From a virus: a DNA stretch of 64,000 nt. Positions 15,318 to 45,906 of this stretch are shown one piece after another. The stretch covers positions 1 to 64,000 of the IMG/VR virus record IMGVR_UViG_3300046373_000172. The stretch is one strand, 5' to 3'. Under the pieces are notes generated by a model. That model saw only the letters and a list, made by a program, of their open reading frames with translations, made no database searches and was not told the origin of the DNA. Position 1 is the first letter of the stretch. Each line of letters begins with the position of its first letter. The position numbers and the translations under genes are program-made.

Positions 15318-16295
15318 ATGGCCTTGACGATGAAAGACCCTACCAGTCCAGGGGACAGCCAGGTCTGGAAAGACCTGGTTGTGCATCCGACCAACACCAG
15401 CAGACACGAGGCTCCGGCCGACCTGAAGAAGTGGCTTGGGCAGCACCTTGAGGTGAAGACGAATAACTCTCGTATCTCGATCTCGCTGCTGGACCCAGCA
15501 GGCAATCAGCTGGGCTGGTTCGACAAGCCAGACCGGTTTGAGGAATCCCGGCCCGGCACCCATGCGGTGGTGACGCACCCTAATCGCGTGACTTTAGTCG
15601 TACCTCTGCGGCCTCCGAAGTCGGCTGAGCCCAAGTCTCAGTGGAGTGTGCCTTCGCCTCCGCCACCGCAGGTTGACAGTGTCGCGCAACAGCTCGTCCA
15701 GGCTAACCGACTGGGCGCTCACATCGTGATGGAAACCCCGGACCGCCTCCAGATGTCGGACGGCTCCTTCATCTGGAAAACGAGACCGGCGCCCAAGTTC
15801 GAGTACGTCGAGCCTGAAGACTTCCATGCCGAGCATATCAGGTACGGCAAGCAGTCTGAGTATTCCCAGCCACCCACCAAAACCCCACCACAAAAAGGAA
15901 ACACCATGACCATCTCCAACACCATCACCGCCACCATCAACGCCAACAAGGCTGCCGCCGCCACCGCCGGCTACATGGAAGCCGGCCGCATCGCCAATAG
16001 CCAGGTCATCAAACTGATCAGCCCGCACTTGCCGTTCCTGCTCAAGGCTTACGCCGACACGCCGTTCGGCAAGCTGGTCGTCGCCAACATCGCGGCGCTG
16101 GCCGCCAAGCAGCTGCGCCCGCAAGACGCTACCTTGGCCGCGCTGACCGACGCCATGACCGTCCAAGCATTTCAGGCCATCTACCAGCAGGTCGACTTCG
16201 AGGCGATGATCAACAGCCTGCTGTCGTCGCCGGAAATGAAGTCGGCGATCGACAAGCTGCCGAAGGACCCAACGCCGACTGGCCAGGCCGAGTAA
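15318..16295 (+). CDS. Two-part ORF: unknown N-terminal protein fused to a conserved phage helical protein
   Basis: 325 codons. Residues 1-196 end in a Pro/Thr/Lys-rich tail (SQPPTKTPPQKGNT). From Met197 (ATG 15906, AAAAAGGAAACACC upstream) begins a 129-residue Ala-rich helical protein (TISNTITATINANKAAAATAG…) resembling a small phage protein usually encoded alone. ATG 15906 sits in an ATGA context, so a 1-nt loss upstream would give the usual overlapping-gene junction. Probably two translation products. Functions unknown. Confidence 0.6.
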   Translation: MALTMKDPTSPGDSQVWKDLVVHPTNTSRHEAPADLKKWLGQHLEVKTNNSRISISLLDPAGNQLGWFDKPDRFEESRPGTHAVVTHPNRVTLVVPLRPPKSAEPKSQWSVPSPPPPQVDSVAQQLVQANRLGAHIVMETPDRLQMSDGSFIWKTRPAPKFEYVEPEDFHAEHIRYGKQSEYSQPPTKTPPQKGNTMTISNTITATINANKAAAATAGYMEAGRIANSQVIKLISPHLPFLLKAYADTPFGKLVVANIAALAAKQLRPQDATLAALTDAMTVQAFQAIYQQVDFEAMINSLLSSPEMKSAIDKLPKDPTPTGQAE

Positions 16296-16298
16296 GCC

Positions 16299-16763
16299 AT
16301 GCCTATCCGTATCCCAGGTGGGCCTGGCCCACTTGAGCAGCTGGAAGAACTCGTAAGGGTCCACGGACCCTTCACGACGTTCGCCTGGACGCATTTTCCA
16401 CCCAACCCTGAAAGCACTCCCATGACCCGCATCTACGAAGACAAAAACGGCGTGGCCGTCAACGCCATCTCCTCCCTCGCTGACGGCACCAACGTCGAAG
16501 GCCACATCTACGACGTGCTGTCCGGCACGCTGCAGCAGCGCATCAACTTTCAACTTGGGCCGGCACCGGCCAACGGCGTGAACGGCTTGACGACCGAGGC
16601 GCTGCTGGCGATCGCCATCCACCGCACGCAGTTCCTGGACGAGCAGTTCCCGAGCCAGTTCAACAAGCGCGCCATCAACGACATGCAGAACGCCCTGCAC
16701 GAGTTTGAAGAACGCACCCGGTCCCGCACCGAGCGCGGCGTCGAAGGCAAGGAGGTGATCTGA
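16299..16763 (+). CDS. Candidate Acb2/Tad1-like hairpin-domain protein (anti-CBASS/anti-Thoeris)
   Basis: 154 codons; the conserved protein probably starts at Met42 (ATG 16422), giving 113 residues. Its C-terminal ~75 residues read INFQ.GP…GVNG, then a long helix, a loop and a second helix ending ER.RSRTERGVEG. This is the pattern of phage proteins annotated with the Acb2/Tad1 hairpin domain. Acb2 proteins oligomerise and bind cyclic oligonucleotide signals of CBASS; here the activity is inference from sequence memory. The first 41 codons cover two strong hairpins and may be leader rather than coding. Confidence 0.55.
   Translation: MPIRIPGGPGPLEQLEELVRVHGPFTTFAWTHFPPNPESTPMTRIYEDKNGVAVNAISSLADGTNVEGHIYDVLSGTLQQRINFQLGPAPANGVNGLTTEALLAIAIHRTQFLDEQFPSQFNKRAINDMQNALHEFEERTRSRTERGVEGKEVI
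16318..16372 (+). promoter_or_regulatory. Two inverted repeats in the leader of the Acb2-like gene
   Basis: GTGGGCC-T-GGCCCAC at 16318-16332 and AAGGGTCC-AC-GGACCCTT at 16355-16372 are perfect inverted repeats within 55 nt. They lie between ATG 16299 and the likely start at 16422. They could be an operator pair or RNA hairpins controlling translation. Confidence 0.4.
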
Positions 16764-17273: not shown

Positions 17274-17483
17274 ATGATTATCGAGACTCCGAATACCCGC
17301 GCCGCCTTCTACGAGCGCCGCTTTGGCGGCGGATACAGGACTGCCCGGACCCGCAAGACCTGCATGCAGTTCGGCTGCTTCAAGCCGATCCTGCCCGGAG
17401 AAAAATTTTTCGACACCCAGGAGCCGACCACCTTCCCGGCCACCAAGTGCATCTGCGAAGGCTGCGCGGAGACTTCGGTATGA
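17274..17483 (+). CDS. Small Cys-rich protein, possible zinc binding
   Basis: 69 residues from ATG 17274 (AAAGGATCCCACC upstream). Six Cys arranged C-x4-C and C-x-C-x2-C around 'CMQFGCFKPILPGEKFF' and 'CICEGC', consistent with one zinc site. N-terminus basic/aromatic. ATGA overlap with the J-domain gene. Confidence 0.6.
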   Translation: MIIETPNTRAAFYERRFGGGYRTARTRKTCMQFGCFKPILPGEKFFDTQEPTTFPATKCICEGCAETSV

Positions 17484-18124
17484 CCCTCTACGAAACCCTC
17501 GGCCTTGCGCCCACCGCCACGCGCGAACAGATCCGGCAAGCCTACCGCAAGCTGGCGCAGAAGCACCACCCGGACAGGTCTACAGGCGACAAAGCCGTCT
17601 TCCAAGCCGTCCAGCAGGCCTACGACATCCTGATGGACCCGGAGCGCCGGGCGCGCTACGACCAGAGCGGTGACGTCGGCGGCCAGGAAGTGAGCGACGA
17701 CGAGAAGCTGACCGCCGCGGCGCAGCAAGCCTTGATGTCGCTCCTGCTGCAGGTGATGGAAGCCACGCACAACATCAGCGCGGTCGACCTGCTGGCCAAG
17801 TGCCTGGAGAGCGTGGCCAGGGCGCAGAGCGTGGCCCAGACAGACCTGCGCAAGGTCGAGGCGGGACAAGAGAAAGCGCGCAAGGCAGCGCAGCGCTTCC
17901 AGGAGAAGGAAGGCAAGGAGAACCGGATGTCCCTGCTTGGGCAGACGCTGGCCGGCCAGTACGACAAGCCGATCGCCGACATCAAGGCCATCATCGCCCG
18001 CAACGACCGTATGAAGCTGATCCTGCAAGAGCACACTTACCGGGTCGACGTGCCGGACGCCCCGGAGAGCGCGAAGGGCTTTACATTCTCCGACTGGACC
18101 ACCCTGCGCATCGAAGGCCTTTAA
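17480..18124 (+). CDS. J-domain (DnaJ-like) protein
   Basis: 214 residues. Residues 1-60 are a canonical J-domain: 'LYETLGLAPTATREQIRQAYRKLA', HPD at residues 30-32, and 'AVQQAYDILMDPERRARYD'. The J-domain stimulates Hsp70 (DnaK) ATPase. Residues 70-155 are helical; residues 160-214 are a unique C-terminal domain with no zinc-finger or G/F region, so this is a class C J-protein. It may recruit host DnaK to a phage task. It ends tail-to-tail with the minus-strand fibre block (4-nt overlap). Confidence 0.85.
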   Translation: MTLYETLGLAPTATREQIRQAYRKLAQKHHPDRSTGDKAVFQAVQQAYDILMDPERRARYDQSGDVGGQEVSDDEKLTAAAQQALMSLLLQVMEATHNISAVDLLAKCLESVARAQSVAQTDLRKVEAGQEKARKAAQRFQEKEGKENRMSLLGQTLAGQYDKPIADIKAIIARNDRMKLILQEHTYRVDVPDAPESAKGFTFSDWTTLRIEGL

Positions 18125-18418: not shown

Positions 18419-19156
18419 TCAATCCTTGGGCAGTTTGCCGGAGTTAAGTCGGATGCGCGGGGCGCCCACATACAGGTTGTTCGGGTTGATTTCCAGTTCG
18501 ATGTCGATCCTGCAGGTGCCGGCGAATGTGTCGGCCCCTTCTTGCACGCTGATCGCCAAGACTGGCTGCGGGAAGAACGCGCCGACCGCGGCGAACGTGT
18601 CCGCCCCTTCCGTCCAGGCCAGTGCCCCAACTTGGGTCTGCGTCGCCACTAAGGCGAACGTGTCTGGCCCTTCGATCGAGGCGATGGACGCCGAGTGCAC
18701 TTCGCCGGAGATGGCGAACGTGTCGGTACCTTCCACCCAGGCGATAGACGCCCCAAGGTGGACCCCGGCTGCAGCGAACGTGTCCGCCCCTTCCGTCCAC
18801 GACAGGCGCACACCTGTCGAGCCGAACGTGAAGGTGACCGGCTGCGGACTGCCAACCGCCACCAAATCCAGGTAGAGCTGGACGTAGGCGACGTAGTTGC
18901 CGTCCAGCGCGGCCGAGGCGCGGAAGCTGGTGTCGTCGTAGACGAATAAGTTCAGGCCTGCCGGCCACGACGTCACCTTGCCGATCACGCGCTTGGTCAA
19001 GTCCCCGGCGTCGAGCCAAGGGAAGACAATGCCCGGGCCGTCCTGCCCCGAACTTGGGATGGTCGAGCCCAGCACGCCGCCGCCCGGATCCCCGAGCGTG
19101 CAGTAACCCGCGCCGTTCCAGTCGACGGTGTCAACGAGGACGTATGCGGTTGTCAT
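18419..19156 (-). CDS. Tail-fibre-like protein with EGADTFA repeats (distal)
   Basis: 245 residues. Residues 1-110 are a Gly/Asp-rich beta domain. Residues 115-225 hold five repeats of about 20 residues with the core (W/I)xEGxDTFAxxG. The same repeat fills part of the upstream gene. Such beta repeats are usual in phage adhesins. ATGA-type overlap with the upstream gene implies co-translation. Likely part of the host-binding apparatus; not demonstrated. Confidence 0.65.
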   Translation of the reverse strand: MTTAYVLVDTVDWNGAGYCTLGDPGGGVLGSTIPSSGQDGPGIVFPWLDAGDLTKRVIGKVTSWPAGLNLFVYDDTSFRASAALDGNYVAYVQLYLDLVAVGSPQPVTFTFGSTGVRLSWTEGADTFAAAGVHLGASIAWVEGTDTFAISGEVHSASIASIEGPDTFALVATQTQVGALAWTEGADTFAAVGAFFPQPVLAISVQEGADTFAGTCRIDIELEINPNNLYVGAPRIRLNSGKLPKD

Positions 19157-19760
19157 GACGCAGTCACCGCCGGCAAGCGTCGGCCGAAGCCGGCGGAGGT
19201 CAAGTCAGGCTCCACGTAGTAAGTCGTGCCGGCCGCCAGCGACGTCGACGCCACCACCAGGTGGCCGGTGCTGTCGGTGGTCAAGCCGGTCGCGCGCAGC
19301 ACCAGGTTGCCTGTCGGGTCGAAGATGTTCAGGTTGCAGCCGGTCATGCCGGACAGCACCGTGCCGTTGAGCAGCGAGCAGATCGGCGACGTCACATGGC
19401 CCATCGCTGGGCCGGACGTGCCGGCGGCGGCGAACGTGTCGGCGCCTTCGGTGAAGGCCAGCGCTACCGCCGTGGCGTAGGTGCTGGCCGCCGCGAAGGT
19501 GTCGGCATTTTCCGTGAAGGCGACCGCGCCGCTCTGCGTCACCCCTTGGGCAGCGAACGTGTCGGCGCCCTCGACCCAAGCCAGGGAGGCGGTCATGCCA
19601 CCAGCCATCTGGATGTCGTCCGGCGCTTCGGTCCAGCCGATCGAGGCGAACGAATGCGAAGCGCCGATCGAGAACGAGTCGGCACCTTCCGTGAAGGCGA
19701 TGGCGGCCTGGTGGTGCTCGGCCGCGGCGGCGAACGTGTCGGCGCCTTCGGTGAGGGCGA
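18516..19760 (-). repeat. 60-bp/20-residue EGADTFA repeat array across two genes
   Basis: On the plus strand the unit appears as GCGAACGTGTC(G/C)G..CC(T)TC at 18592, 18654, 18714 and 18774, and again near 19433, 19493, 19553, 19674 and 19734. The two clusters lie in adjacent genes read in the same direction and are similar enough at DNA level to recombine. Confidence 0.8.
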
Positions 19761-20451
19761 TGGTGCCTGTGACGGCAGCGACCCGGGTGATCGGGTGGGA
19801 AGGCGTGATCGTGGCAACGGACACGCCGCCGACGGCGGTCATGGTGCGGCTGCCGCCCAGCGAGGTGTAGGTGCCGCCGGCGCTGTAAGTCTCGAACGTC
19901 CAGCCGTCCACCCAACCCGTGATCGCCTCTGGCTTGACACTGTCGGCCAGCAGGTTGTCGACGTCGGTGGCGGTCAGCGCGACGTTGAAGAAGTGCGCCT
20001 CGGCGATGTGGCCGTTGGTGAACAGGCTGGCGGCGGCGTTGTTGTAGTGGTACGCGCCGGCCACGACACGGTCGTGATTCGACGTGCTGTCGGTCATCGA
20101 CGCACTGCTGGTGCCGGGGCTGCTGCTGCTGCCGTAATAGACCTTGCGATCCGTGGCGCTGGCGAAAACGCTCACCATCAAGCGCATGGTGGCGTTCGGG
20201 TTCGGGCTGGTCGTCTTGGTCGCGTTGTCGCCTGACCCCGGGTTGCGGTAGGTCGCATACTTGGACGAGCCGTTGGCGTCGAGCCAGCCGACTGCGTACC
20301 GATCAGCATTGCTCTGCCCCTGGCTCAGCCAGAATTGGCCTGCGCCGGTGCCGTCCGCCGACACCCACTCCATGATGGAATAAGGGTAGGCGGAGACAAT
20401 CTTGGCGTTGTGCTCCAGGTAGCCGGTCGTGCCGTTTAGTTTCAGTGCCAT
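19153..20451 (-). CDS. Tail-fibre-like protein: LamG-like N-terminus plus EGADTFA repeats
   Basis: 432 residues. Residues 1-190 begin ALKLNGTTGYLEHNA and contain the Gly/Trp/Asn pattern of a concanavalin/LamG-type carbohydrate-binding fold. Residues 225-350 hold six copies of a 20-residue repeat, one degenerate (EAPDDIQMAGG). The C-terminal 80 residues are a fibronectin-like beta domain. Likely receptor-binding or fibre protein, by architecture and neighbours. Confidence 0.65.
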   Translation of the reverse strand: MALKLNGTTGYLEHNAKIVSAYPYSIMEWVSADGTGAGQFWLSQGQSNADRYAVGWLDANGSSKYATYRNPGSGDNATKTTSPNPNATMRLMVSVFASATDRKVYYGSSSSPGTSSASMTDSTSNHDRVVAGAYHYNNAAASLFTNGHIAEAHFFNVALTATDVDNLLADSVKPEAITGWVDGWTFETYSAGGTYTSLGGSRTMTAVGGVSVATITPSHPITRVAAVTGTIALTEGADTFAAAAEHHQAAIAFTEGADSFSIGASHSFASIGWTEAPDDIQMAGGMTASLAWVEGADTFAAQGVTQSGAVAFTENADTFAAASTYATAVALAFTEGADTFAAAGTSGPAMGHVTSPICSLLNGTVLSGMTGCNLNIFDPTGNLVLRATGLTTDSTGHLVVASTSLAAGTTYYVEPDLTSAGFGRRLPAVTAS

Positions 20452-22652: not shown

Positions 22653-23528
22653 ATGTTTCCCAAATCCGTAACTGTGCTGGCGATCACGCCGGAAACCGAC
22701 CTCACCAAGCTGAACGAGCAGGCCCTGGAAGCGGCGCCGTATAAGCCGATCGGCGCCACCGAGGAAGAGTCCTCCGGCTGGGTGCCGGCGTTCGAAGACC
22801 AGTTCCTGTTCCAGTACCACGGCTTCTCACTGCTGAAGTTCGCCATCGAGAAGAAGTCGGTGCCGGCGTCGGCCGTCAAGAAGTTGCTGAACGCCAAGAT
22901 CGTGGCGGACGAAGAACAGCGCGGCAGCAAGCCGGGGCGCCTGCGCCGTAAGGAGTTGAAGCAGGAGGCCAAGGAAGAGTTGCTGGCCCGCGCCATTCCG
23001 AGTTATAGCGAGGTGCCGGTCTTCCTGGACCAGGCGCGGCGCCGGCTGCTGATCGGCACGGCCACGGCGTCGGCGGCGTCGTCGATCATGGGCGCCCTGT
23101 ACGGCGCGTCAGAGGTGCAGCTGCAGTCGCTGCCCAAGTGGCCCGGCCGCGAGGCGGTGACGACCTGGCTGTGCTTGGACAGCGACGACGAAGATCACCC
23201 TATGCCGGACCTGTTGACGGCCGACGATTACGCCCTGTTCGACTGCCCCGGCGAGACCGGCAAGACGATCCGCTTCGACAAGGCCAACCTGGATGACGCC
23301 GACGTGCAGCTGGCGATTGCGGCCGGCGCCGTGCTGGCCGAACTGGCGATGACGTGGGACGCCAAGGTGTCCTTCATCTGGAAGGATTCGGAAGTCACGC
23401 TGACAGGCGTGAAGCACCTTGGGGTGCTGGAGGCTGCCGGCCCGGACGTGGACGCCTTCCAGAACGACTTCTACCTGACCAGCCAGACGCTGCAGGCGCT
23501 GGTCGACTACCTGGAGGCTTGTGCATGA
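22653..23528 (+). CDS. rdgC: RdgC-like recombination-associated protein
   Basis: 291 residues, close to the ~300 of bacterial RdgC. Key family features: N-terminal 'ALEAAPYKPIG…SSGWVPAF', 'LLKFAIEKKSVPASAVKKLL' (RdgC has L…EKK.LPASVV), 'GRLRRKELKQEAKEELLARA' and 'SYSEVPVFLDQARRRLLIGTAT'. RdgC is a ring-shaped DNA-binding protein that restrains RecA-mediated exchange. As the first gene of the operon it may protect phage DNA or steer recombination. Start ATG 22653 follows ACAGGAATTTAC. Confidence 0.85.
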   Translation: MFPKSVTVLAITPETDLTKLNEQALEAAPYKPIGATEEESSGWVPAFEDQFLFQYHGFSLLKFAIEKKSVPASAVKKLLNAKIVADEEQRGSKPGRLRRKELKQEAKEELLARAIPSYSEVPVFLDQARRRLLIGTATASAASSIMGALYGASEVQLQSLPKWPGREAVTTWLCLDSDDEDHPMPDLLTADDYALFDCPGETGKTIRFDKANLDDADVQLAIAAGAVLAELAMTWDAKVSFIWKDSEVTLTGVKHLGVLEAAGPDVDAFQNDFYLTSQTLQALVDYLEACA

Positions 23529-26101: not shown

Positions 26102-29100
26102 ATGCCTAATTTCTACTACTACCAGAAGCAGGGTGGCGAGAACGTCTGGCTGCCGTCGCCGGTGGCGGATCGTGTGCGGCTCGAAGACGAGGATCGGCCG
26201 GAGTTCATCTCCGTGCTGGCCGTGTCGCGCATCATCGACGACGAGATCACCTACGAAGACAAGCTCAAGCTGACCTATGCCGGCCCGCTGTACTTCGACT
26301 GGGACTCGTCCGACGAGCAGCTGGTGATCGAGAAGGTGAACCAGTTCCTGGACCACCTGGTCACGCTGCGGGTCAACCTGGAGATGTGCAAGCTGTTCGC
26401 CACGGGCGGGCGGGGTTACCACTTGGAGATCCCGCAGTCGATGCTGATGGACAAGATCCCGCCCAAGGGTGTGCTGGGCCTGCCTTACATCTACCGTGAG
26501 ATGGCCTACGAGATGGCGGTCGACACCTTGGACTTGCGTATCTACTCGGGGCTGAAGGGCCGCATGTGGCGCGTGGCGAATGTGCGCCGGGACAACGGCC
26601 GCTACAAGGTGCCTATCCGTGTTTCGGAGATGCGCGCCATGACGCCGGAGATGTGCCGCGAACTGACCTCTTCGCCACGCCGGGTGGTCGAAGTGGTCAA
26701 CGCCGCCTACTCGCCCGAGCTGGCCATGATCTACGAGACGGGCAAGCAGAAGGTCGAAGACATCACGCTCAAGCGCAAGCGCTTCAAGCCTGACCCGGAA
26801 GCGGCCAAGCGGGCGCACTCCGAGTCGATCCAGGCGGCGATGGCCGGCTTTGGCCTGAAGGATGGCGCCGGCTTCCACCCGATCGGCATGCAACTTGCCC
26901 AAGCCGCCTGCACGGCGGGCCTGTCGATGGAGCAGTTCATCACCGAGTGCGCCGGCTTGATCGCCAACCACCGCGGCGACGGCGAGCGTTACAGCACACC
27001 GAAGAAGCGCGAGGACGAACTGCGCCGGATGCACCGCTACATGGACGGCAACGCCTGCTACGAGTTCTCGATCGGCGCCATCAAGTCGCTGCTGGCCCAC
27101 CCGGCGCCCGACCTGGACGGCGTGCCGATCTCGGCGGAGGAGCTGAAAGAGGTGATCGCTGCGGCGGACACCTCGGCCGGAGAGGAAGACGAGTATGGCG
27201 ACGTGGCGCGCGGCATCACGCTGTCCAAGTACGGCGTGTACAAGTGGGTCGAGGGGATCAGCAAGCGGGTCTGCGCGGTGTCGTTCGACACCTCGGACCT
27301 GCTGCTGTCGTCGGAGAGTTCGACCATCATCGGCTACTCGTCGACCGTGCTGGTCAACGGGCGTTCGGTCGGGCGCCAGGTGTTGGAGACCGAGATCTTC
27401 AGCGCGCTCAATCCGTTCAACCGGTTCGCACAAAAATATGGCCACACCTTCGTGGGCAATGACCAAGACGTGCGCGTGGCGATGATGCGCTTCGTCGAGG
27501 CGGCAAAGAAAAGAGGCAGTCAAATGTACGTGGTAAAACGAGAAGGCCTGGACGTGCTCAGCGTGCCGGATCACCCGGACGAATTCTTCCGCTCCCCCTT
27601 CGTGGTGTGGGCCGAGGCGTCCGAAGTGTGGACGTCGGAAGAACTGGCCGAGCGCGGTATGAAGATGAAGTTCCTGGGGCACCCCGACCAGCGCGGCGTG
27701 ATGCGCACCGACCTGTCCCTGGCGCCGTCGCTGCCGTCCTGGCTCAAGGAACCTGGCAACAAGGAGCTGATGCGCCTGACGCTCGAGAACCTGATGTCGT
27801 GCCAGAAGGCGGACTTGATGGGCAAGCTGATCGGCTGGTACGTGTCCTGCTTCTGGAAGCAGATCTTCAACCACACCTATTCCAAGTTCCCGCTGCTGCA
27901 CGTGAACGGCGCAGCGGGGGTGGGGAAATGCTTGGGCAGGGGCACCCCGGTGTTGCTGGCCTGCGGCCAAACCTGCAACGTCGAAGACATTCGGACTGGG
28001 GACCTGCTTATGGCGCCCGACGGAGGTGTGCGCACGGTACTGTCTACGACCCAGGGCTTTGACCGCATGTTCCGCGTCTCCCAGTGGTTTGAAGGCAAGC
28101 CGCTGGAAACCTACACCGTGAATGCTGCGCACATCTTGAGCCTGCGGCATTACCGCACTGGTGAGGTGTTGAACACCAACGTCGAAGATTTCCTCGACAT
28201 TGACGGGCCAGAGGACAATATCTACCTGGGGTGGCAGGTCCCTGGGATTTTGGAGAAGGACTTGACCCCTCGGCTGGTCGAGATCGAGATTGAAGAGATG
28301 CCGGCAGACGATTACTACGGCTTCACGATCGACGGCGATCACCTGTTCCTGTTGGGCGACTTCACGGTCACCCACAACACGGAGACGAACGAACTACTTG
28401 GCTCCTTCTTCTTCTACAAGCAGGAGGTGCACACGATGTCGCCGTCGTCGACCATCTTCGCCTTAAACCAGCACTTGGCTGCGTCGGCGTCGATTCCCCT
28501 GATCGTCGACGAATACAAGCCGGCGGAGATGAAGGCCGAGCTGCACAACCGGATGAAGCAGATGTTCCGGGACGCCTACAACCAGCGCCAGATTTCACGC
28601 GGCGGCGGTACCCGGGAGTCGGACGACTTCCGCACGCTGCAGCAAGTCGAGATGGCCGCGCCGCTGGTGTTTATCGCGGAAGCGGCCGAGGACGAGGCGG
28701 CGGTGATGGAGCGCGTCGTCTTGGCCACCTTCACCCGTCCGCCGGCGATCATCGGGCTGAAGAACCTGGCCAAGTTCCAGCAGGTGCGCCAGCACCGCCA
28801 CTTGCTTGGCATCCTTGGGCAGCACATGGCCGCCAAGATCGTGCGCACCTTGACCTTCGACGGTTTCCGCGCAGAGTTCGACGCCCTGTATGAGGTGGCG
28901 CAGAATACCTACATGCTGACCGAGAAGGACTTGACCAACACCACGCTGACGGACACGGAGCGCATGAACAAGCAGAACGCCAAGGAGCGCTCGGTGTTCA
29001 ACCACACGGTGGCCAAGTACGGCTTCCAGCAGTTCCGCGCGCTGGTCAATGAGATCGTCGACGACGAAAGCCTGGACCCGTTGATGGCGACGCTGGAAGA

Positions 29101-29491
29101 CGGCATCTACTCCCGCCTGTCGGACCTGAACGCAGCCACCACGCCGGAGCACATCAAGGTGCTGGCCGAACTGGCGCAGATGAGCCACCACGTGCACAAC
29201 GACCACGCCGACGCGATCAACTTAGGTACCGAATACGCCTTCGTGCAGCACGGTGTCCAGGAGTGCATCGAGATCGCTGTGCGCCCGGCATATGCCAAGT
29301 ACCGCTCGTACTGCCGCAGCATCGGCAGCCCGGCGCTGTTCACGTCGCCGCAGGCCTTCATGCTGTCGCTGAAGGACTCGCCGGCCTTCGTCAAAGAGGG
29401 TACCGGCCAGACCCTGCTGGTGCCCAAGGTGTTCACGCTGAACAACGAGGAACTGGCGAAATACGGCGTGGATCCGTTCAAGAATCGCTAG
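26102..29491 (+). CDS. Primase-helicase (AEP-like primase plus P-loop helicase) with an intein
   Basis: 1129 residues, 979 after intein removal. The N-terminal domain has the archaeo-eukaryotic primase pattern: metal-binding YFDWDS (64-69) and GGRGYHLEIP (102-111). Residues ~230-330 are a linker/PriCT-like helical part. The C-terminal helicase has Walker A GAAGVGK (603-609) interrupted before Thr760 by a 150-residue intein, Walker B 'IPLIVDEY' and a sensor 'APLVFIAEA'. It should prime and unwind at the fork, supplying the phage DNA polymerase I. The active helicase depends on intein splicing. Confidence 0.85.
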   Translation: MPNFYYYQKQGGENVWLPSPVADRVRLEDEDRPEFISVLAVSRIIDDEITYEDKLKLTYAGPLYFDWDSSDEQLVIEKVNQFLDHLVTLRVNLEMCKLFATGGRGYHLEIPQSMLMDKIPPKGVLGLPYIYREMAYEMAVDTLDLRIYSGLKGRMWRVANVRRDNGRYKVPIRVSEMRAMTPEMCRELTSSPRRVVEVVNAAYSPELAMIYETGKQKVEDITLKRKRFKPDPEAAKRAHSESIQAAMAGFGLKDGAGFHPIGMQLAQAACTAGLSMEQFITECAGLIANHRGDGERYSTPKKREDELRRMHRYMDGNACYEFSIGAIKSLLAHPAPDLDGVPISAEELKEVIAAADTSAGEEDEYGDVARGITLSKYGVYKWVEGISKRVCAVSFDTSDLLLSSESSTIIGYSSTVLVNGRSVGRQVLETEIFSALNPFNRFAQKYGHTFVGNDQDVRVAMMRFVEAAKKRGSQMYVVKREGLDVLSVPDHPDEFFRSPFVVWAEASEVWTSEELAERGMKMKFLGHPDQRGVMRTDLSLAPSLPSWLKEPGNKELMRLTLENLMSCQKADLMGKLIGWYVSCFWKQIFNHTYSKFPLLHVNGAAGVGKCLGRGTPVLLACGQTCNVEDIRTGDLLMAPDGGVRTVLSTTQGFDRMFRVSQWFEGKPLETYTVNAAHILSLRHYRTGEVLNTNVEDFLDIDGPEDNIYLGWQVPGILEKDLTPRLVEIEIEEMPADDYYGFTIDGDHLFLLGDFTVTHNTETNELLGSFFFYKQEVHTMSPSSTIFALNQHLAASASIPLIVDEYKPAEMKAELHNRMKQMFRDAYNQRQISRGGGTRESDDFRTLQQVEMAAPLVFIAEAAEDEAAVMERVVLATFTRPPAIIGLKNLAKFQQVRQHRHLLGILGQHMAAKIVRTLTFDGFRAEFDALYEVAQNTYMLTEKDLTNTTLTDTERMNKQNAKERSVFNHTVAKYGFQQFRALVNEIVDDESLDPLMATLEDGIYSRLSDLNAATTPEHIKVLAELAQMSHHVHNDHADAINLGTEYAFVQHGVQECIEIAVRPAYAKYRSYCRSIGSPALFTSPQAFMLSLKDSPAFVKEGTGQTLLVPKVFTLNNEELAKYGVDPFKNR
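27929..28378 (+). other. Mini-intein (150 aa) in the helicase P-loop
   Basis: Starts at Cys610 (CLGRGTPVLLACG; splicing block A), has a block-B-like 'YTVNAAHILSLR', block F 'DDYYGFTIDGDHLFLLGDF', and ends HN at residues 758-759 followed by Thr760, the +1 nucleophile. The insertion lies between Lys609 and Thr760 of Walker A, a classic intein site. It has no homing-endonuclease domain. Confidence 0.9.
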
Positions 29492-45163: not shown

Positions 45164-45364
45164 ATGAGCATCCCACAAGACGGCTGGATCCCTTCCGCAG
45201 AATGGTGCGCCAAGTACAAGGAGGCCGCGCCGACCGTCCGGCGCCGGGTGCAGGATGGCGCCTGGAAGCGCGGCGTGCACTGGGCGGCGCCGGACGGCGG
45301 TTGCTCCTACGTGCACGAGCCGCGCTGCCGGCAGTGGTTGATCGAACGAGGTAAGCTGAAATAA
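45164..45364 (+). CDS. Excisionase/MerR-like small DNA-binding protein
   Basis: 66 residues, AAGGAGAATT ribosome site. 'GWIPSAEWCAKYKEAAPTVRRRVQDGAWKRGVHWAAP' then 'SYVHEPRCRQWLIERGK' has the winged-helix pattern of phage excisionase-type proteins. No integrase is visible, so it may be a transcription regulator. Stop lies inside the stem of the terminator. Confidence 0.6.
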   Translation: MSIPQDGWIPSAEWCAKYKEAAPTVRRRVQDGAWKRGVHWAAPDGGCSYVHEPRCRQWLIERGKLK

Positions 45365-45395
45365 ATAAAGCCCGCGAAAGCGGGCTTTATTTATT
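45360..45395. terminator. Bidirectional rho-independent terminator
   Basis: AATAAATAAAGCCCGC-GAAA-GCGGGCTTTATTTATT, with A/T flanks giving U-tracts in both directions. It sits between the convergent replication and lysis/tail blocks and overlaps both stop codons. Confidence 0.92.
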
Positions 45396-45906
45396 TATTT
45401 ATGGCTTGCTGCTGGCCGAAATAGAAAGCCCGCCACCCAAGGGCTTGCTCACGCCAGGCTCGGCACGACGTGGCGTTGTGGGTTTCGGTCTCGGCAATGG
45501 CAGAGATCGGAATGCCGGCGGGTCCACGGTCAGACTCGGCGGCGGGTCCATCAAGGTCACCTGCCCAGGCGGCGTTGTATGCGCGCACCCAGCCAACGTT
45601 GACGCCATACATAGCATCGTCAGTGGGGACCACCAGGTCGTGAATGATTTGCACACTTTTCTCTCCCTGCACGTAAATTTTCTGAATCCGATCCCGATAC
45701 ACAGTCTCGGTCTTCGTCACCACTTTCACCTGAGCCTGTGCGATGCGCGTCGTCTCCGTCGCCTGCTTCATCACGTACTCAGTGTGCTTCTCGCCGGCGC
45801 GGCGCTCGCCTTGCAGGTTGCCCAGACCCCAGGCCGCCGTCACGATAACGGCCAGCGCGGCCCAGCGTGCCCAAGGTGGGAGGACGATCCCGGTGAGGTT
45901 CACCAC
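45391..45906 (-). CDS. i-spanin (Rz-like)
   Basis: 171 residues. One N-terminal TM (PWARWAALAVIVTAAWGLGNL) then a periplasmic charged coiled coil (QATETTRIAQAQVKVVTKTETVYRDRI) and a variable tail. Size, topology and position after the endolysin fit the inner-membrane spanin, which links to the o-spanin to disrupt the outer membrane. Confidence 0.82.
   Translation of the reverse strand: MVNLTGIVLPPWARWAALAVIVTAAWGLGNLQGERRAGEKHTEYVMKQATETTRIAQAQVKVVTKTETVYRDRIQKIYVQGEKSVQIIHDLVVPTDDAMYGVNVGWVRAYNAAWAGDLDGPAAESDRGPAGIPISAIAETETHNATSCRAWREQALGWRAFYFGQQQAINK
45399..45656 (-). CDS. o-spanin lipoprotein (Rz1-like), nested in the i-spanin gene
   Basis: 85 residues read in a different frame inside the i-spanin gene. 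It has a signal sequence with lipobox LAGC (Cys24), then a Pro-rich mature part (TTPPGQV…PPPSLTVDPPAF…PRPKPTTP). Nested Rz1 with Pro-rich periplasmic chain is typical of Gram-negative phages. Confidence 0.8.
   Translation of the reverse strand: MCKSFTTWWSPLTMLCMASTLAGCAHTTPPGQVTLMDPPPSLTVDPPAFRSLPLPRPKPTTPRRAEPGVSKPLGGGLSISASSKP

Follow-up and report, generated by a model that had tools for sequence, protein, structure and literature searches.

Tad1 and Acb2, whose family definitions are taken here from a review (PMC12043709), have in common a helical hairpin and the Pfam family PF24729. In Tad1 an N-terminal antiparallel sheet (beta1-4) is combined with two long helices, whereas Acb2 consists of a short helix and two long helices, and the Tad1 pocket is composed of conserved loops together with the C-terminal tail (PMC12043709). 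Ligand range varies among the known homologues of both (PMC12043709). Virions of phage phiKZ inject its Tad1, gp184, into cells (PMC10449902; PMC13282480), and this protein is reported to block both CBASS and Thoeris (PMC13282480).

The window analyzed here is a 64,000-nucleotide stretch (positions 1 to 64,000) of the 87,475-base virus record IMGVR_UViG_3300046373_000172. It encodes a protein that is a member of the Tad1 family and not an Acb2. This protein type is already known and the gene is a further Tad1 example, useful rather than surprising, which extends a characterized family of immune-signal sponges to little-sampled phages with relatives in Burkholderiales and Acinetobacter genomes.

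Extent of the tad1-like gene

An earlier sequence-only reading had placed a candidate Acb2/Tad1-like sponge in a plus-strand open reading frame of 154 codons. The frame is present as described, but its start was placed too far upstream, and codon-position G+C, a leader hairpin and the start methionine of relatives together move it 41 codons downstream. The features concerned are:

16299..16763, plus strand, open reading frame of 154 codons
16296..16421, plus strand, leader separating the upstream gene from tad1, comprising the initial part of that frame, with flat codon-position G+C
16422..16763, plus strand, tad1-like gene of 113 amino acids plus stop, with conserved start, coding signature and homology, assigned to Tad1 on the basis of a PDB search, a profile and the predicted fold

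G+C at the three codon positions was 0.66/0.54/0.59 over codons 1-41 (16299-16421) and 0.61/0.39/0.89 over 16422-16763, compared with 0.61/0.42/0.81 for the mean plus-strand gene. Since the first 41 codons carry no coding signature and have no counterpart in relatives, and since the methionine equivalent to 16422 is the start in relatives from other viruses (consensus M-R/T-I-H/Y-x-D-H-N-G-V), the true start is almost certainly the ATG at 16422, giving a 113-residue protein whose numbering is used below. The leader is probably not translated; it can form strong hairpins, among them AAGGGTCC-AC-GGACCCTT at 16355-16372, which is a perfect 8-bp inverted repeat, and its RNA fold of -46.4 kcal/mol compares with -38.1 in shuffled sequences (z -2.4). 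The ATG at 16299 directly follows the stop of the upstream gene, and a longer form may be produced from it by coupled translation. A strong Shine-Dalgarno sequence was found at neither ATG. The minus-strand frame of 16299-16763 is also open and was set aside because codon signature and homology both lie on the plus strand. The upstream gene (15318-16295, plus strand) encodes a C-terminal DUF7566 domain (PF24450, 1e-26; residues 187-307), and its weaker codon signature before 15906 suggests that its own true start is perhaps near that position.

Family membership and predicted fold

The C-terminal motif on which the earlier call was based (INFQ.GP...GVNG...ER.RSRTERGVEG) is present, and the likeness is far beyond chance. 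A single-sequence search of the PDB gave Tad1 as the best match, with CmTad1 (8kbb) at E 6e-7 for the 154-codon form and 3e-7 for the 113-residue form, over residues 39-111 of the latter. The same search matched phiKZ gp184 (8y6v chain I, from a phiKZ particle structure) at E about 3e-4 to 7e-4. This homology covers the C-terminal 75 residues, gp184 being a 230-residue protein with a long N-terminal extension. The window protein matched PHROG 2428 at E 5e-29, as did the Tad1 of Bacillus phage SBSphiJ7 (OM982674) at 8e-47, and the two proteins are 43% identical over residues 82-150 of the 154-codon frame. The SBSphiJ7 protein differs in its length of 142 residues, in a longer loop ahead of the FQ.GP motif, in one additional residue at the turn between helices 1 and 2, and in its neighboring genes within a Bacillus herellevirus. 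A tblastn search of a phage collection returned SBSphiJ7 Tad1 and the SPG24 'Tad1' among 26 records.

To avoid circularity, known Tad1s were kept out of a profile (A3) whose only members were the window protein and 11 of its close relatives in viruses. Against the PDB it recovered all deposited Tad1 sequences at E 8e-20 to 8e-12 and gp184 at 1e-11, with no other match up to E 1 and no Acb2 among them; against SBSphiJ7 Tad1, hhalign gave a probability of 99.6% with 38% identity over 76 columns. No match for the window protein was found in Pfam, NCBIfam or PADLOC, including PF24729 (Acb2_Tad1_hairpin) at E up to 1. At E up to 0.1 that model recognized 14 of the 31 relatives, and it matched SBSphiJ7 Tad1 at 3e-8; as it overlooks the window protein along with roughly half the relatives, surveys based on PF24729 undercount Tad1. 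In a tree the window protein grouped with relatives from proteobacterial phages, apart from the Bacillus and Lactococcus Tad1s, and because the deep split is weak (66/88) no claim is based on it.

Structure prediction with AlphaFold2, using 31 window and metavirome sequences and no templates, produced a model with pLDDT 92.5 and pTM 0.79 in which two elements are predicted:

16425..16550, plus strand, N-terminal four-stranded beta-sheet, residues 2-43 (strands 2-6, 11-18, 24-34 and 37-43), pLDDT >90 over most of its length
16593..16736, plus strand, helical hairpin, helices 58-75 and 79-105, aligning with solved Tad1 chains

Foldseek comparison of this model with the PDB gave 10 significant matches, all of them CmTad1 (apo, with cAAA or with cAAG; E 1e-5 to 1e-4, probability 1.0, TM 0.74-0.80), the eleventh match being at E 0.8. 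The hairpin fold proposed for checking by structure prediction was thus recovered, with a TM of 0.80 to CmTad1 (PDB 8kbb, 8kbc, 8kbd) over the whole chain, and the NFQ.GP...NG loop and C-terminal tail are also common to the two proteins. However, identity in the fold alignment is 24-26%, the N-terminal sheet is barely alignable by sequence, and the window protein is shorter by about 20 residues. The window protein is therefore predicted to have the Tad1 plan. It follows from this plan that the N-terminal region previously described as extra (NGVAVNAISSLADGTNVEGHIYDV), which is coding and conserved, corresponds in the model to the beta strands of the Tad1 fold and not to an addition to Acb2. 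It is this predicted sheet (residues 2-43) that sets a Tad1 apart from an Acb2. The earlier assignment to an Acb2/Tad1-type protein is accordingly borne out and narrowed to Tad1; solved Tad1 structures are matched by its sequence, by the profile and by the predicted fold alike.

Putative ligand pocket and proposed mode of action

Conservation among 31 relatives is concentrated in two further features:

16548..16586, plus strand, loop FQ.GP...GVNG, residues 43-55, with F43, Q44, N54 and G55 invariant and G46 in at least 90% of relatives
16713..16748, plus strand, basic end of helix 2 and C-terminal tail RT..R..RGVEG, residues 98-109

By analogy with solved Tad1s, the loop is expected to line the putative ligand pocket. 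Besides the four invariant loop residues, E59, L61, R68, R98 and G109 are invariant in the 31 relatives, while H28, G46, N58, C78, N81, A84, L95, T99, R102, R105, G106, V107 and E108 are present in at least 90% of them. The window protein keeps all nine invariant residues and the near-invariant ones except N58 (T) and C78 (S), with L95 replaced by F; at positions 78 and 80 it has S and F, residues that are C and E in the majority of relatives. Proteins of the proteobacterial-phage branch are about 110-120 residues long, start with MxRIHTDHNGV and have one residue fewer than gram-positive Tad1s between R68 and F71, before the helix 1-2 turn. Residues F82 and N92 of CbTad1 reportedly contact gcADPR. 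Counted along the CbTad1 chain, they would fall on the F in 'KSFQ' and on the N in 'SREN', equivalent to F71 and N81 of the window protein, a tentative mapping that serves as a lead.

Taken with the behavior of solved Tad1 proteins, homology, predicted fold and conservation make it very probable that the protein serves as a phage Tad1-family sponge for the Thoeris signal gcADPR and for CBASS cyclic di- and trinucleotides, alarm nucleotides with which bacteria set off antiviral suicide. Each 113-residue protomer, with its predicted N-terminal four-stranded sheet and C-terminal helical hairpin, would assemble by analogy into a hexamer (a trimer of dimers). The FQ.GP..GVNG loop, the turn between helices 1 and 2 and the RT..R..RGVEG tail would together form pockets where the two chains of a dimer meet, suited to gcADPR and cyclic dinucleotides; cyclic trinucleotides would instead be taken up at the trimer interfaces. 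The protein would presumably be made during infection and would hold the alarm signals of the host in undegraded form, and with the signals sequestered the Thoeris and CBASS effectors would stay off.

Relatives, genomic setting and alternative readings

A scan of viral contigs with the single protein gave no confirmed relative, while alignment-based scans of IMG/VR gave 80 and 52 loci. Six relatives were found in GTDB genomes, including Polaromonas, Piscinibacter, Rhodoferax, an uncultured betaproteobacterium and Acinetobacter. In the family to which the Polaromonas relative belongs, 10 of 101 genomes encode SMODS (CBASS-type nucleotidyltransferase) domains, and targets therefore exist in plausible hosts. 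The relatives reside in unrelated phages and prophages; across 26 compared loci with G+C of 36-69%, almost no neighbors beyond tad1 are common with the window, the exceptions being common phage genes (thymidylate synthase, SbcCD). Such scant sharing across varied G+C fits a mobile accessory counter-defense gene. In the window, tad1 is one of a series of small genes on the plus strand; a DnaJ-domain gene and then tail-type genes on the opposite strand come after it, and a replication module with genes for RdgC, a helicase, a primase and a polymerase lies further downstream. Elsewhere, tad1 is found inside or beside a head/packaging operon in four unrelated prophages or phages (L112, L094, L101, L104), between portal/head-morphogenesis and major head genes in L112 and between two head-morphogenesis-type genes in L094, and in L099 it follows an SSB gene. 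Since phiKZ gp184 is injected with the virion, packaging of some of these relatives is conceivable by analogy. A separate observation concerns Burkholderia phage FLC9 gp131 (LC667451; L006:1353-2369), annotated only as hypothetical, in which a cyclophilin-type peptidyl-prolyl isomerase (PF00160, 2.5e-44) is joined to a C-terminal Tad1 domain (PHROG 2428, 6e-29).

The presence of relatives within head-gene operons of unrelated prophages, together with the PDB entry of gp184 and its entry into cells by injection (PMC10449902), might indicate a structural or virion-associated protein that has the Tad1 fold but no sponge function. We consider this very improbable, as the window gene lies away from head genes and the near-absence of common neighbors among relatives is unlike a structural gene; moreover, virion delivery is compatible with sponge function because phiKZ Tad1 is reported to block CBASS and Thoeris (PMC13282480). 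The reading that the window protein is an Acb2, with a short N-terminal helix and two helices and active against CBASS only, has next to no probability. The helical hairpin and the sponge principle are common to both families, and T4 Vs.4, an Acb2, matches PF24729 at 7e-20. However, the 43 N-terminal residues are predicted as four strands, a sheet that Acb2 does not have, and no Acb2 chain appeared among the PDB sequence, profile or fold matches of the window protein. A wider profile (A2) likewise produced no real alignment with T4 Vs.4, giving a chance alignment of 15 columns at an hhalign probability of 3%, and Acb2 membership was rejected.

It is unlikely that the protein descends from a Tad1 but has a pocket altered by drift so as to bind another nucleotide signal, such as cyclic trinucleotides alone or a signal outside those assayed so far, leaving Thoeris unblocked. 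Ligand range may differ because of the one-residue deletion beside the helix 1-2 turn in this branch and the S78 and F80 substitutions; against this, the family-invariant F43, Q44, N54, G55 and R98 and the near-invariant N81, R102, R105 and G106 are all retained. It is likewise unlikely that the proteobacterial-phage branch combines a shifted pocket and a ligand range unlike that of studied Tad1s with packaging and injection of its head-operon members in the manner of phiKZ gp184. The branch offers test proteins for how few changes shift ligand range.

Several other features were observed in the window. The DnaJ-domain phage protein of the accessory region (PF00226, 4.5e-21) is encoded at 17480-18124 on the plus strand, and on the minus strand (18419-20451) two adjacent tail-type genes carry 'EGADTFA' repeats, with DNA repeats of about 56 nt in 7 copies. 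An RdgC-like gene (22653-23528, plus strand; PF04381, 5.6e-40) heads the replication module, and a primase-like protein of 1129 amino acids (26102-29491, plus strand) has, over residues 610-687, a Hint domain of the kind associated with homing endonucleases and thus probably contains an intein. Where gene blocks converge, a perfect 17-bp inverted repeat with a 4-nt loop and A/T runs alongside (45359-45396) is likely a bidirectional terminator.
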